Assembly (NCBI GenBank): GCA_031276545.1
Contig: JAISMW010000017.1
Coordinates: 1-6,475, forward strand
DNA from: Tannerellaceae bacterium
GTDB taxonomy: Bacteria > Bacteroidota > Bacteroidia > Bacteroidales > Tannerellaceae
Direction of reading: 5' to 3'
DNA: 6,475 nucleotides
Each line of letters opens with the position of its first letter. Within the stretch, counting starts at the first letter, position 1. Positions 1 to 6,111 of this stretch are shown in pieces. Under the pieces are notes generated by a model. That model did no database searches. It was given only the letters and a program-made list of their open reading frames with translations, and was not told the origin of the DNA. Made by a program: the position numbers and the translations under genes.

Positions 1-672
1 ACGATCGTAAGTAAACCGTACACGGACGAAAACGACCTGATTAGTTGGCACTTGGATCACAGCAAAGGTCGCAATGAGAAAGGCATTAATTTATTGACAG
101 CCTTTTACTATACCCAATTGCCTTCGGCGTTGGAAACCTTGCGGGTTCCGGTGGCCTTTGAATGTGTAAAAAAGACGGTTCGGTTCTGCGAAATTAAAAC
201 CCGAAAGGAAAAGCGTCAAAGTCCGGTAACTAAAAATGAGCTGATGCGTTTGATGCTTCAGCGGGCAGTCAAAGAACAATACCTTCAGTTTCGATATGTA
301 CTGGCTGACAGTTGGTTTTCCTCATCGGACAATTTACTTTTCATAGACAGGCTGAAAAATAAATGTACCTGGTAAGCAACGGTTTGACACTTTCCGCCGA
401 CGATTTCCAAACACTTTACAAAAAAACGGTGGAGTGTGGAATAATACCACAAATCACTCAAACAGAACGCTTCTTTAGCAAAATCGCCTACAAGAACCGT
501 CACAACACAGTCGAATCATTTGTTTGCCTCGTTGTTGGCATATATCAAATTGGAGAAACTCAAGTTCGTACATAAGTTGAATCATTTTGCCTTGAAATCC
601 AAAATTTATTTTCGCGCTCTAAAATATGCCTGGAAGGAATTGGAGGCTATCAAATATTATGAACTTGCGTAA
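1..672 (+). pseudogene. Decayed DDE transposase, IS copy 1, 5' end outside window
   Basis: This is the C-terminal two thirds or more of a DDE transposase. The frame is open from base 1 (TIVSKPYT...) and retains ADSWF (about 307-321), which probably carries the second catalytic Asp. Several lesions are visible against copy 2 at 4968-5928. An internal deletion near 354-362 joins the residues LKN directly to MYLVSNG, losing roughly 65 residues. One extra A in the seven-A run at 420-426 shifts the frame. A stop codon, TAA at 442-444, replaces the codon after the probable catalytic Glu in WSVE. Past that stop the frame runs cleanly from YHKSLKQN to a final YYELA, with TAA at 670-672. The type resembles the IS4/IS701-like DDE transposases frequent in Bacteroidales; the exact IS family is not certain. 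It cannot make an active enzyme. Confidence 0.9.
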
Positions 673-681
673 AATGAGTTA
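666..681 (+). repeat. Right terminal inverted repeat of IS copy 1
   Basis: TGCGTAAAATGAGTTA matches the right end of copy 2 (5922-5937) with one mismatch, at position 673. It overlaps the end of the transposase frame exactly as in copy 2. It marks the right boundary of copy 1; the left end is outside the window. Confidence 0.8.
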
Positions 682-932
682 CTTATTAGAATATTTGCAT
701 CACTTCTTCTAATATTTGCGGAAATTCATTCACTGGTTGACGGAGTTGTTTAAGTAACCTTTTCCCGCCATCCTCAAGAAACTCATCACTGTAAAACACT
801 CCCCTATTGTCGGTTTTAGTCGGTGAAAGTCGTTTCTTTTTCGCTATTATGACAGTGGACAGCCTTCGCTACGCTTCTTTTTATTTTCTTTGAGCAAATC
901 CTGCTTCCTTATCGGGTTGTAATGTATATATA
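682..932. other. Gene-free interval upstream of the channel gene
   Basis: These roughly 250 AT-rich bases hold no intact gene. They contain a minus-strand open stretch described separately, two copies of AATATTTGC (690-698 and 711-719, 21 bases apart), and the leader of the channel gene. I searched for a Bacteroides-type promoter (TTTG, 19-21 bases, TAnnTTTG) ahead of position 933 and found no convincing match. The promoter of the channel/GTPase pair therefore remains unassigned. Confidence 0.6.
686..868 (-). pseudogene. Possible 3' remnant of an unknown gene
   Basis: On the minus strand a frame is open from just after a TAG at 869-871 to a TAA at 686-688, about 60 codons. It contains no ATG; the only reasonable start is a GTG at 797-799, giving 37 residues. 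The translation is hydrophilic and protein-like, with segments such as RGVFYSDEFLEDGGKRLL and VNEFPQILEEVMQIF. It begins a few bases beyond the right end of IS copy 1, which fits a gene tail cut off by mobile DNA. I do not recognise the family, and chance reading is possible. Confidence 0.3.
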
Positions 933-1757: not shown

Positions 1758-2858
1758 ATGAGTGCAACACGTATTATTATGGCCGGCGGTTTCCTGGGCG
1801 CCGGCAAAACAACCCTGCTGTGGGAAGCTGCCCGGAAACTGAAGGAAAGAAGCCTCTGCGCCGGTTTGATTACCAACGACCAGGCGCCCGAACTGGTAGA
1901 CAGCGCCCTCTTGTCGCGCGAGGGAGTGAAGGTGGCCGAAGTGAGCGGAAGTTGCTTCTGCTGCAACTTCAACGGATTTATCCATGCCGTGGAAAGCCTG
2001 CGCTCCGAAATGGAAGCCGCCGACGTCATCATCGCCGAACCGGTAGGTAGCTGTACCGACCTCTCGGCCACCATCCTTCAGCCCCTGAAGAAGTTCCTGA
2101 GGAACGAACTCCAGGTGGCGCCCCTCTCCGTACTGGCCGACCCCGTCAGGCTGGCTTCCATCCTGAACGGAGGAACGGCCGGACTGCATCCCGACGCTGC
2201 CTATATCTACCGCAAACAGCTTGAAGAAAGTGACATCATTCTGATCACCAAAACCGACCTCCTTTCGCCCGAAGAGCTGGCTGTGCTGAAAAAGCGTACC
2301 GCCAAAGCCTATCCGGAGGCAAGGATTATCGCCGTAAGCGCCCTCACCGGGGAAGGACTGGACGAATGGCTGGACGATGTGATGAAAAGCAACGGCGCCG
2401 GGCTGCGACTGGCCGACGTGGACTACGACATCTATGCCCATGGAGAAGCCGTGCTGGGATGGCTCAACGGAACGGTACGCCTGACCGCTGCGGAAGAGGA
2501 TACCGACTGGGACGGCCTTACCTACCGCCTCCTTGCCGCCCTGTCCGAACGCTTCGACAAGGCCGGATATGCTGTGGGACATGTGAAAGTGATTGCCGAA
2601 AACGGCGATCGCTACGTGGCCGGAAACCTGACCGGGAAGGCTTCCACCCTGGCCGTAAGAGGATCGGCAGGAAAAGGAAAGGAGATTAAACTCACCATAA
2701 ACGCCCGCGTGGAAACCGGTCCCGGTGAATTAAATGAAATCGTAAGGGAAACGCTTGATGCGCTGACCGGGGATACGCTTAGCGCAGAAACGGTGGCCTG
2801 GCGTTTCCTTATGCCCGGCCGACCGCAGCCTACGCACCGTTTTGTAGAAGTAGTATAG
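1758..2858 (+). CDS. CobW/P47K-family (G3E) P-loop GTPase, probable metallochaperone
   Basis: Cytoplasmic GTPase of the COG0523/CobW group, whose members insert or deliver metals (Zn, Co, Ni, Fe) or serve cobalamin-dependent enzymes. Visible motifs in the 366 residues: Walker A GFLGAGKTT at 11-19; TNDQ at 39-42 in the switch region; the family CxCC metal site as C66-F-C68-C69; Walker B-like DVIIAEPVG at 89-97; and the guanine-recognition motif as TKTD at 164-167, a variant of NKxD. The C-terminal third (from about 220) does not obviously carry the standard CobW C-terminal domain signature, so the partner may differ from that of classical CobW or YjiA. The start has an A-rich leader (AAAATAAAGATACA) instead of a strong Shine-Dalgarno site. 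It is the second gene of a pair with the channel. Family assignment is secure; the metal and client protein are unknown. Confidence 0.92.
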   Translation: MSATRIIMAGGFLGAGKTTLLWEAARKLKERSLCAGLITNDQAPELVDSALLSREGVKVAEVSGSCFCCNFNGFIHAVESLRSEMEAADVIIAEPVGSCTDLSATILQPLKKFLRNELQVAPLSVLADPVRLASILNGGTAGLHPDAAYIYRKQLEESDIILITKTDLLSPEELAVLKKRTAKAYPEARIIAVSALTGEGLDEWLDDVMKSNGAGLRLADVDYDIYAHGEAVLGWLNGTVRLTAAEEDTDWDGLTYRLLAALSERFDKAGYAVGHVKVIAENGDRYVAGNLTGKASTLAVRGSAGKGKEIKLTINARVETGPGELNEIVRETLDALTGDTLSAETVAWRFLMPGRPQPTHRFVEVV

Positions 2859-2865
2859 AGAGGGT

Positions 2866-3990
2866 TCAGATACCCAGACAAAGGCAATAGGGTTCGAAGG
2901 CATAGCTGTCGTTCCCCGCTGACACCACATTCCCCATACCTGGAAAAGCAATATGCATACCGGCTATGGGGATGTTCTTTTCCGCCACGTAAGACAGGAT
3001 GCGCCTGCGTGTGGCCACCGACTGCTCCGTGTCTGTATCGCGGGCATAAGTCACGCCGGGACAGGGCATCTGGATACGCATCGCATGGGTCAGATCTCCC
3101 CAGACGAGCAAACGTGCGCCCCCCGATTCAAAGAGATAGGCCGTATGCCCCGGCGTATGCCCGTAAGCGGCGATACCCTGCACGCCGGGGAGCAAAAGGG
3201 CCGGCCCTGCGGAAGCCCCGCTGTCCGGAAGGTCGGCAGGCACAAACAGATGCAGCCTGTCTCTGTAAACCTCAATCACTTTCTGTGCCGGCAGAGCCTG
3301 TGCCGATCGGTTGCCCGTCCAGTAATCATATTCCGGCTGTGACAGATAAATATCCGCATGAGGGAAAGCCGCCTTTCCGTCCCTCAGCATCCCTCCGATA
3401 TGGTCGCCGTGCAGGTGGGTCAGCAGGACGGCATGTATATCTCCGGGTTCTACGTCGAGCGCATCCAGGTGGTCGAAGAGCTTGCGCCCGTAGCCGGCAT
3501 CCACCAGGATGTTCCTGTCCGGCATCCGTACCAGAAAAGCGTTGACGGCGCTCGGATAGGAGCCGTCGGGCACGTGGGTCTGAATCATCTGGGGCGTGGC
3601 ACCCGTCAGCGCATCTACCCGTCCGCTGCGCTGTTCTTCGGAAAGCACGGAAACCTGCGCCTGGCCGATTTCGAACGTCATCACAAGCTGTTCGCCGCCG
3701 TTTTGCGCCCTCATCCCGCTTCCCTGGAGGACGGTCAGCAGGAGAAGCACGGAGAGGACAGCCTTCAGCACCCGCCTCTCTTCCGGTTTCTCCGGCTTTT
3801 TGCAGTCGCAGCGGCAACGTCCGTCGTCGCCGGTGCCGCAGTCGCACGTACAGTGGCCGTCGACGGTACAGTCGCAGTCGCACGCCACCCCGTTGCACAC
3901 ACATACGCATCCTCCGACCTTCAGTTCGGAAGGATGCTTTATATTCTTCAGAATATCGCCTATGGCTTTTTGCCTGATGGGAGTTATCAT
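2866..3990 (-). CDS. MBL-fold metallohydrolase with N-terminal CxCxC-repeat domain
   Basis: A 374-residue protein in three parts. Residues 1-27 form a charged helix-like stretch ending in VGG. Residues 28-63 hold twelve cysteines in four CxCxC clusters (C28/30/32, C37/39/41, C47/49/51, C59/61/63) separated by 4, 5 and 7 residues, followed by a Lys/Pro/Glu linker. Residues 74-96 (VLKAVLSVLLLL...MRAQ) look like a signal peptide or membrane anchor. The rest is a metallo-beta-lactamase-fold enzyme with H192-L-H194-G-D196-H197, H278/H282 in HTPGH, D299 and H346, a complete two-metal site as in the lactonase/hydrolase branch. The substrate is unknown. Another CxC (C369, C371) sits at the extreme C-terminus. 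A GTG at codon 74 (3769-3771), preceded by purine-rich GAGAGGCGG, could start a plain secreted form lacking the Cys domain. It follows the reductase gene by 12 bases, so the two are probably one operon. Confidence 0.88.
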   Translation of the reverse strand: MITPIRQKAIGDILKNIKHPSELKVGGCVCVCNGVACDCDCTVDGHCTCDCGTGDDGRCRCDCKKPEKPEERRVLKAVLSVLLLLTVLQGSGMRAQNGGEQLVMTFEIGQAQVSVLSEEQRSGRVDALTGATPQMIQTHVPDGSYPSAVNAFLVRMPDRNILVDAGYGRKLFDHLDALDVEPGDIHAVLLTHLHGDHIGGMLRDGKAAFPHADIYLSQPEYDYWTGNRSAQALPAQKVIEVYRDRLHLFVPADLPDSGASAGPALLLPGVQGIAAYGHTPGHTAYLFESGGARLLVWGDLTHAMRIQMPCPGVTYARDTDTEQSVATRRRILSYVAEKNIPIAGMHIAFPGMGNVVSAGNDSYAFEPYCLCLGI

Positions 3991-4002: not shown

Positions 4003-4845
4003 TTAAAAATCAATTTTATCCGGATGCAGCCCCGAACCTCCGATATAAGGCAGGCTGTTGAGGGTATGCATATCTTCCTCGGAAATGGAGAAGCCGAACA
4101 CATCGGCGTTTTCAAGAATCCGTGCAGGCGTAACGGATTTGGGCAGAGGCAGCGTGCCGTTCTGCAAACACCAGCGGATGCACAGCCGGGCGACAGAGAC
4201 GCCGTAGCGTGCAGCCACCTCCCCGAGCAGCGGACTGTCAAGCAGACGCCCTGTGCCCAGCGGACTCCAGGCTTCCACCACGATGCGGTTCGCCTGGCAG
4301 AAAGCCAGCGTATCGTCCTGCATATAGCCGGGGTGAAACTCCATCTGATTGACTGCCGGCTGTATTTCGGCAGTGTCCAGCAGCGCTTCGATATGATGGG
4401 TAAGGAAATTGCTCAGCCCGATAGCCCTAATCCGTCCGTCCTTATATAGCGTTTCCAAGGCACGCCAGGTATCGGCGTTCGTCTTTTCCCATCCGTTTTT
4501 GTTAGCCGGCCAGTGTATCAGATACAAATCGACATATTCGACGTTCAGTTTCCGCATACTTTCGCCGAAAGCCTTCAGAGCAGGCTCATAGCCCCGCTTC
4601 GTATTCCACAGTTTGGTGGTAATAAAAACCTCCTTGCGGAGCAGACCCGATTCGGCGATTCCCCGTCCCACGCCGGCCTCGTTTCCATACACATCCGCCG
4701 TATCAATATGGCGATAGCCCGCTTTCAGAGCATAGTTCACGGCGTCGGCAGCCACCTGTCCGTCGGGCGTTTGCCAGGTACCGAAACCAATACAGGGAAT
4801 CTCAACCCCGTTAGCTGTTTTAAAAGTGTCAGTCAGTGATTTCAT
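4003..4845 (-). CDS. Aldo/keto reductase, 2,5-diketo-gluconate reductase-like
   Basis: Cytoplasmic NADPH-dependent reductase of the aldo/keto reductase superfamily (TIM barrel), 280 residues, the usual size for the AKR5-like bacterial group that reduces 2,5-diketogluconate, methylglyoxal and other carbonyls. The catalytic tetrad is complete: D48 (HIDTA), Y53, K78 (TTKLW) and H111 (LIHWP). The signature GLSNF lies at 143-147, and the cofactor phosphate-binding stretch PKSVTPARILEN lies at 235-246 with K236 and R242. There is no signal peptide. It is the first gene of the minus-strand pair with the MBL hydrolase and has an A-rich leader before the ATG at 4843-4845. The physiological substrate cannot be read from the sequence; a reactive-aldehyde role is possible. 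Confidence 0.93.
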   Translation of the reverse strand: MKSLTDTFKTANGVEIPCIGFGTWQTPDGQVAADAVNYALKAGYRHIDTADVYGNEAGVGRGIAESGLLRKEVFITTKLWNTKRGYEPALKAFGESMRKLNVEYVDLYLIHWPANKNGWEKTNADTWRALETLYKDGRIRAIGLSNFLTHHIEALLDTAEIQPAVNQMEFHPGYMQDDTLAFCQANRIVVEAWSPLGTGRLLDSPLLGEVAARYGVSVARLCIRWCLQNGTLPLPKSVTPARILENADVFGFSISEEDMHTLNSLPYIGGSGLHPDKIDF

Positions 4846-4967: not shown

Positions 4968-5928
4968 ATGAAAAAAGAGATGGATTTATACAGCGATTAC
5001 TTGTTGAGCAGTTTTGGCCGGGTAACCGCGACGGGTCTTTCCGGTTTGTTGGACGGGGCCGTGTCTCACGATAAAATCACCCGTACACTGTCGGGTGCCG
5101 AATACACTTCAAAGGATTTATGGCAGGAGGTAAAGACTTTGGTTCGGGAATACGAAAGCGAAGAAGCGTGTTGATATTCGATGACACGATTGTAAGTAAA
5201 CCGTACACGGACGAAAACGACCTGATTAGTTGGCACCGGGATCACAGCAAAGGTCGCAATGAGAAAGGGATTAATTTATTGACCGCCTTTTAGCATACCA
5301 ATTGCCTTCGGCGTCGGAAGCCTTTCGGGTTCCGGTAGCCTTTGAATGTGTAAAAAAGACGGTTCGGTTCTGCGAAGTGCAAACCCGGAAAGAAAAGCGT
5401 CAAAGTCCGGTGACCAAAAATGAGCTGATGCGTTTGATGCTTCAGCGGGCAGTTGAAGTTCAACAGCTCAAATTCCGGTATGTCTTGGCTGATAGTTGGT
5501 TTTTCTCATCGGACAATTTACTTTTCATACACCGGCTGAAAAAATATTTTGTAATGGACATGAAAAGTAAGCGTCTGTGCCTGTTTTCCACGCAGGACAG
5601 GAACAGAGGAGGGTGGACAAGTTTGGATAAATTGCCGATACCGTCGGGACAGGCCGTCAAAGTTTGGATAAAAGACCTTGCAATAGAAGTTCTTTTATGC
5701 AAATTCGTCTTTACAAACAAAGACGCTTCTTCGGCAAAATCGCCTACAAGAACCGTGACTACACAAACGAATCATCTGTTTGCCTCGCTGTTGGCCTATA
5801 TCAAATTGGAGAAACTCAAGTTCGTGCATAAATTGAATCATTTTGCCTTAAAATCCAAAATTTATTTTTGCGCCCTAAAATATGCCTGGAAGGAACTGGA
5901 GGCTATCAAGTATTATGAACTTGCGTAA
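4968..5928 (+). pseudogene. Decayed DDE transposase of IS copy 2
   Basis: The start (MKKEMDLYSDYLLSSFG...) and end (...EAIKYYELA) are both present, but the gene is broken at least four times. One T is missing near 5169-5173, turning the expected EACLIFDDT into a TGA stop at 5172-5174. A TAG stop at 5291-5293 replaces a Tyr codon present in copy 1. One C is missing just after it (ACCAATTG for ACCCAATTG). An internal deletion at about 5723-5735 fuses FTNKDASS to AKSPTRTV, removing some 40 residues that in copy 1 include WSVE with the probable catalytic Glu. The probable first Asp (FDDT) and second Asp (LADSWF) remain. The reading therefore uses three frames: 4968-5174, about 5171-5293, and 5302-5928. 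It is not functional. Confidence 0.9.
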
Positions 5929-5937
5929 CATGAGTTA
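5922..5937 (+). repeat. Right terminal inverted repeat of IS copy 2
   Basis: TGCGTAACATGAGTTA is a perfect inverted match to 4925-4940. It overlaps the last codons of the transposase (the gene ends at 5928). Confidence 0.9.
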
Positions 5938-6111
5938 ATTAAATCAAAACAGTTTCTAAGAAAGGCAGGAAAAAAACAGACCGGCTACCATCGGCGAAAT
6001 CTGAACGAAGCAGTGATGTTCCGGTACAAAACAATTTTTGGTGGAGAACTGGATGCCCGAACATTTGAAAATTAAAAAACAGAAGTTAGTCTCAAATGCG
6101 TAACCTTAAAT
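5938..6111 (+). pseudogene. C-terminal fragment of an IS5-type transposase
   Basis: Directly after IS copy 2 the plus strand, in the frame with ACC at 5980, reads TGYHRRNLNEAVMFRYK and then TIFGGELDARTFEN, a TAA at 6073-6075, and KTEVSLKCVTLN. The string Y-HR-R-NLN-E-AVMFRY-K fits exactly the Y(2)R(3)E(6)K signature around the catalytic Glu of IS4/IS5-superfamily transposases. The TAA probably replaces a CAA (Gln) codon, an inference from related proteins. Nothing of the N-terminal part is found on the other side of copy 2, so this is a leftover tail. It is unrelated to the transposase of copies 1 and 2. No start, no function. Confidence 0.75.

Follow-up and report, generated by a model that had tools for sequence, protein, structure and literature searches.

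The locus and its hydrolase

The window analysed in this study, a stretch of 6,475 nucleotides assigned to the Tannerellaceae, carries on its minus strand a gene in which a Cys-rich N-terminal extension is joined to a signal peptide and an MBL-fold hydrolase. The hydrolase gene follows an aldo/keto reductase (AKR) gene and converges with a gene for a CobW/COG0523 GTPase. The features of the locus are as follows:

2866 to 3990, minus strand: whole ORF of 374 amino acids without internal stop, comprising the Cys-rich N-terminal extension, the signal peptide and the MBL-fold hydrolase
3910 to 3990, minus strand: leader, residues 1-27 (MITPIRQKAIGDILKNIKHPSELKVGG), short and basic, preceding the first Cys and conserved in alignment A2 of extended sequences
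3802 to 3909, minus strand: Cys-rich segment, residues 28-63, with four CxCxC clusters; its length varies among relatives
3772 to 3801, minus strand: linker, residues 64-73 (KKPEKPEERR), net positive, from sequence and alignment
3706 to 3771, minus strand: residues 74-95, forming the h- and c-regions of the signal peptide, with probable cleavage between A95 and Q96, from hydropathy, alignment and the Q-rule
2869 to 3705, minus strand: predicted mature MBL-fold hydrolase, residues 96-374 (Pfam PF00753, E 6.6e-20), whose nearest solved structures are of methyl parathion hydrolase and lactonase types
4003 to 4845, minus strand: AKR gene, directly upstream of the MBL gene (PF00248, E 6.2e-55)
1758 to 2858, plus strand: gene for a CobW/COG0523 GTPase that contains a CFCC (CxCC) motif (PF02492, E 2.7e-23); it runs towards the MBL gene in convergent orientation

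Translation of the minus strand agreed with an earlier sequence-only reading of this DNA, which, without naming a strand, had placed twelve cysteines in residues 28-63, grouped as four CxCxC clusters, and beyond them a linker, then a hydrophobic segment, then the full MBL active site. The cysteines stand at residues 28, 30, 32, at 37, 39, 41, at 47, 49, 51 and at 59, 61, 63, that is, twelve in 36 residues with no CC pair, and the other cysteines of the protein are at 310, 369 and 371. Shuffling the residues of the whole protein 20,000 times never brought twelve cysteines into any 36-residue stretch, a clustering far from chance; when only the segment was shuffled, 130 of 100,000 trials reached its eight CxC.

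The enzyme part contains, in order, the motifs HLHGDH, GHTPGH, WGD and GMH, and the metal-site elements of the MBL superfamily (HxHxDH, a later His, a bridging Asp and a last His) were all found together with PF00753. Across 18 aligned rows, H192, H194, H197, H282 and H346 are invariant, and D196 and D299 are conserved in at least 90%. The nearest solved proteins by sequence and fold are methyl parathion hydrolases, OPHC2-type phosphotriesterases and AidC-type lactonases, these fold and PDB sequence searches concerning the enzyme part only and residues 1-99 being modelled with low confidence, while the AidB model NF047979 gave 141.6 bits, below its equivalog cut-off of 360. The protein thus shares with the methyl parathion hydrolase, OPHC2 and AidB/AidC-type dizinc lactonases the fold and the metal-site motifs of the mature part, but none of the closest matches is reported with a Cys-rich N-terminal part.

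A further CxC lies near the C-terminus (EPYCLCLG, within window positions 2866-2900). It was correctly recorded by the sequence-only reading and proved to be a separate feature and a trait of the wider family, since among the best 120 of 2265 matches it occurs in 67, and the N-terminal Cys segment, as called, in five including the query. The idea that the C-terminal CxC is a partner of the N-terminal ones was rejected on this count.

Distribution of the Cys-rich extension

When called proteins and DNA were considered together, the extension was present in seven distinct genes, the window's included. P0002-P0005 are the called relatives that bear the Cys segment, and the DNA of L001, L002 and L021/L028 (genome G020) adds extended copies, L002 being the same gene as P0004 except for the repeat. 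L001 and L002, the best matches to the window, come from Tannerellaceae MAGs. A search for the segment elsewhere, which had been proposed from the sequence, showed that it recurs on MBL relatives and gave no fusion to other proteins. Regarding standalone relatives, a 73-amino-acid query returned no candidate sharing three words, a region search with residues 1-75 of P0003 retained five proteins of eight candidates, all five being already-known MBL fusions, and the viral contigs searched held no relative.

The extension is rare even where the enzyme is common. The family of G001 was represented by 123 genomes, of which 53 had an MBL match at E 1e-60 and three had the extension; the same three genomes supplied the three extended copies among the 30 MBL loci fetched, the others having plain starts or being uninformative for the N-terminus (L059 ends with its contig and L044 reads into the upstream gene). 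The 16 loci from named genomes comprised two extended, 12 without the segment and two (L005 and L016) with an unreadable N-terminus, and readable non-extended relatives start with plain signal peptides. The order sample (393 genomes) and the phylum sample (395 genomes) each gave one true match, G001 in both cases, and their Cys-rich matches L030 and L031 were rejected as chance matches rather than the fusion. Similarly, eight of the 123 family genomes gave rows at E 0.1, of which three hold real fusions; the weak rows in the other five were set aside, as L023 proved to be a Cys peptide of the GG type and the remainder look like chance.

In the phylogenetic tree, all eight extended rows fell within one clade of 15 (support 100/99), whose sister, P0013, has a plain signal peptide in its called form. 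The remaining rows of the clade are five with unknown starts, P0009, whose called protein has a plain signal start, and P0014, which was set aside because by eye it is a chimeric record whose second half equals P0002. Extended and unknown-start rows are interleaved in this tree, with five changes between the two labels, which blurs its reading as to a single origin. The extension is confined to one MBL clade and is lineage-specific and young, an addition made by a narrow Bacteroidales group to an otherwise ordinary exported metal-dependent hydrolase. Another member of the clade, P0012, keeps the linker (CKKPQEPDGRR) and is probably a dead or repurposed enzyme, because several MBL metal ligands have been lost (HLHGGH, GPTPGH and WGA).

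Translation, repeat variation and selection

The distance from the AKR stop codon to the ATG of the MBL gene is 12 nt in the window and 11-14 nt over the window, L001, L002 and L028. L002 has in-frame starts at codons 1 and 31 and, next, at codon 84, where the hydrophobic segment ends; with no start between codons 31 and 84, its signal peptide needs the upstream part. Besides, P0006 is called from a TTG inside the hydrophobic segment, and its own DNA (L001, 4998-6134) encodes the extension. In comparisons of four DNA copies, dN/dS was 0.12-0.34 for the leader (six pairs) and 0.10-0.20 for the MBL part; for the Cys segment, pS was 0.59-1.18 versus a pN of 0.16-0.34, values that come from a simple Nei-Gojobori count over a short, alignment-dependent segment (20-34 codons per pair) in which five of the six pairs are saturated.

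The number of cysteines across the eight sequences ranges from eight in L028 to 14 in L001, arranged in two to four CxC runs and never as CC. The description of four CxCxC clusters consequently holds for the window's copy, but the seven other sequences have 8-14 Cys in two or three CxC runs. L002 and P0004, otherwise near-identical, have 11 versus 9 Cys and are one unit apart, a difference that may reflect metagenomic assembly collapse. Nine aligned Cys positions are invariant in alignment A2, the Cys codons switch between TGC and TGT with the Cys pattern unchanged, and none of the length changes among the sequences compared is frame-breaking.

As judged from these sequences, the segment is real: it shares the reading frame of the enzyme, is translated as part of the same protein and evolves under purifying selection. 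This agrees with the earlier assignment of the Cys segment to the protein, which P0002-P0005 and the DNA of L001, L002 and L028 all bear out; the finding that had been named as pointing the other way, homologues that consistently lack a conserved Cys segment and begin at codon 74, is not what was observed, and L002 has no start between codons 31 and 84.

A probable Cys-rich n-region with putative metal-thiolate chemistry

We propose that the product of this gene is a secreted MBL enzyme, similar to methyl parathion hydrolase and lactonases, and that its signal peptide would have a lineage-specific n-region of about 73 residues, in which a short, basic leader is followed by CxC repeats of variable length and then by a basic linker. 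Signal peptidase I would cut at A|Q, and the mature enzyme would leave without the Cys segment. The segment, tethered by the h-region, would behave like a metallothionein and bind metal ions of the soft or borderline class (Zn, Cu or Cd-like). For each metal enzyme exported, one metal-thiolate segment would thus remain at the inner membrane or take part in targeting there, and it could buffer metal locally or, in response to metal, serve as a brake or guide on export. Taken as a whole, this view, in which every molecule of the exported metal enzyme is made together with one metal-thiolate peptide that is tethered to the membrane on the cytoplasmic side, is a tentative explanation, to which we give somewhat less than an even chance; cleavage, membrane side, metal binding and buffering or gating are what we infer from sequence comparison, and the metal-binding segment is putative.

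The dense CxC cysteines are a metallothionein-like trait, and regular CxC spacing without CC is expected of thiolate metal ligands such as those of metallothioneins. Since the number of CxC units varies, loose buffering would be favored over one fixed cluster. No metallothionein family match was found, the only model reported being Teneurin NHL, at E 1.8 or worse, in three of six members. Moreover, searches of Pfam, NCBIfam and the PDB gave no family for the Cys segment (weak, chance-like rows only), in accordance with the earlier remark that no standard MBL architecture is known to have this front end, and no fold supports metal binding because residues 1-99 have mostly pLDDT <50 in the AlphaFold model. 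The lack of matches to metal families and the loose number of cysteines would also suit a thiol/redox or iron-sulfur sensor, or a protein-binding motif directed at a targeting factor or a disulfide partner, in which metal binding is incidental, and the selection that keeps the cysteines and the basic leader would be compatible with such roles. Nevertheless, the regular spacing is kept in all eight sequences in the manner of metallothionein thiolate ligands, and no iron-sulfur family was reported in the library profile searches of the protein and the segment; we consider this alternative unlikely.

The predicted removal of the n-region draws on several observations. A95 is invariant in 18 of 18 aligned rows and Q occupies position 96 in 16 of 18, relatives without the extension share the A-Q c-region in their plain signal peptides, and the signal peptidase I substrates of Bacteroidetes mostly expose Gln (the Q-rule), according to the account given in PMC5837995. 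The simplest reading of the extension is therefore as the n-region of a signal peptide that is cleaved. The other Sec/SPI features of Bacteroidetes exported proteins, a basic end of the n-region (net charge of residues 64-77, +3) and an h-region, were likewise found in sequence and alignment, and the basic linker ahead of the h-region would place the extension on the cytoplasmic side. The Cys segment is therefore best read as a giant n-region, likelier to be cut from the enzyme on export than to stay with it, and the durable connection envisaged in the sequence-only reading, from a Cys domain in the cytoplasm to an enzyme in the periplasm, is not supported, since the hydrophobic segment ends in A-Q as in plain relatives. 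An uncleaved anchor, which would make the protein bitopic and keep the cytoplasmic Cys domain attached to the periplasmic enzyme for good, would account for the hydrophobic segment that starts at residue 74 (best 19-residue Kyte-Doolittle mean, 1.83) right after the basic linker, and for the c-region G-M-R-A-Q of the window, which has no clean A-x-A; the hydrophobic core is, however, only about 16 residues long, short for an anchor, and with the conserved A-Q this makes the uncleaved form rather unlikely. Tat export was rejected by eye, the RR at residues 72-73 of the window not being kept in relatives.

A more specific version of the tethered n-region would be a metal-gated signal peptide, whose metal-filled CxC segment folds and delays or permits export according to the cytoplasmic metal state, leaving a remnant in the form of a tethered metallothionein; we regard it as improbable.

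The segment could alternatively derive from a Cys-rich RiPP-like precursor, with a leader ending in GG or KG and a Cys core, that became fused to the enzyme and is perhaps still modified. In some copies, the window's included, its basic leader, GG and Cys-rich CxC core resemble those of the GG-Bacteroidales peptide precursors (TIGR04149), such as L032 (...LKGGCSCKCGC), which occur in 45 of the 123 family genomes at E 0.01, including G001 and G002, and a weak FibroRumin match (E 0.71) was also recorded. The residues before the core are GG in the window, L001 and L028, and KG, NG or GS in L002, P0002, P0003 and P0005. The extension differs from these precursors in its fusion to an enzyme and in having no detectable leader homology: profile comparison gave a probability of 3.3 for the whole and 0.2 for the leader only, the GG-Bacteroidales peptide profile scored no extension above 0.3 bits, and the library profile search of the window's protein contained no TIGR04149 row. 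In addition, the best TIGR04149 match in G001 and G002 lies elsewhere, G020 is without any, and no radical-SAM gene was identified among the neighboring genes read, for which part of the ORFs was run against the library. Membership in TIGR04149, which had looked promising after L023, was thus rejected because the leader fails the profile comparison, and the mechanism is kept as a quite improbable rival. L023/L038 (genome G091) is itself a Cys-rich GG-leader peptide with the core ...GTCACICIGNVCSCACAY..., above the TIGR04149 cut-off.

Neutral expansion of a repeat on a signal peptide, tolerated since the segment is cut off, would explain why the CxC unit number varies even within one gene (L002/P0004), and cleavage would in any case rid the enzyme of the repeat; the low amino-acid change relative to silent change in the repeat segment, the nine invariant cysteines and the frame-preserving length changes argue against it, and we assign it little probability. 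That the protein really begins near codon 74, where the window's ORF has a GTG, the Cys reading being a by-product, is barely credible despite the clipped call of P0006, as it is refuted for L002, which requires the upstream part, unless a non-standard start is used, and as silent change is far above amino-acid change.

Comparison with known systems

The usual view of a signal peptide is that of an address tag to be thrown away after use. With a conserved, Cys-rich n-region of about 73 residues, the signal peptide of this one clade of exported metal hydrolases would have a chemistry of its own and, if the segment binds metal, the cytoplasmic metal state would be coupled to the export of a metal enzyme. 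What is new is the kind of n-region, the enzyme family and the export route being already known, and a limited search of one open library returned no title or abstract opening describing such an architecture.

The segment resembles metallothioneins and CxC-rich metal-thiolate peptides in its high Cys density, CxC spacing and loose unit number, but it is part of a signal peptide instead of a free protein, it lacks a family-model match and its metal binding is only putative. A further parallel is found in autotransporters, in which a conserved long N-terminal extension precedes a normal Sec h-region, as described in PMC2805444. The window's extension shares this layout, but it is Cys-rich, longer and carried by a soluble periplasmic-type Bacteroidales enzyme; no autotransporter beta-barrel translocator was found in the window's protein, which only MBL models cover. 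Besides, gene callers can clip such segments, as in P0006, and other Cys-rich n-regions may be hidden likewise.

Gene neighborhood

The order of AKR, MBL and convergent CobW genes is kept in the window, L001, L002 and L028, and an aquaporin-type gene follows CobW in the first three and not in L028. This CobW was found in 29 of the 123 family genomes, compared with 53 for the MBL at the same cut-off. Among the 30 CobW loci fetched, seven have an MBL gene in the flank, three of them extended and convergent and four directly downstream on the same strand; the matches of these four to P0003 begin at residues 63-71, past the Cys segment. In the remaining 23 loci, some of them cut by contig ends, the MBL gene does not adjoin CobW. 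CobW/COG0523 proteins are described as putative metal chaperones with a CxCC motif in PMC2770081, and the CobW neighbor loosely supports a metal theme, the link being loose because the MBL gene is absent beside CobW in so many loci and is found in more genomes than CobW. The aquaporin-type gene precedes CobW in 22 of the 30 CobW loci (L069-L098), a wider pairing than that of MBL and CobW.

Window positions 1-685 and 5186-5941 are two direct copies of a transposase-bearing IS region, 89-94% identical over three ungapped pieces. They flank the block of aquaporin, CobW, MBL and AKR genes in a composite-transposon-like layout, and both of their reading frames look broken.
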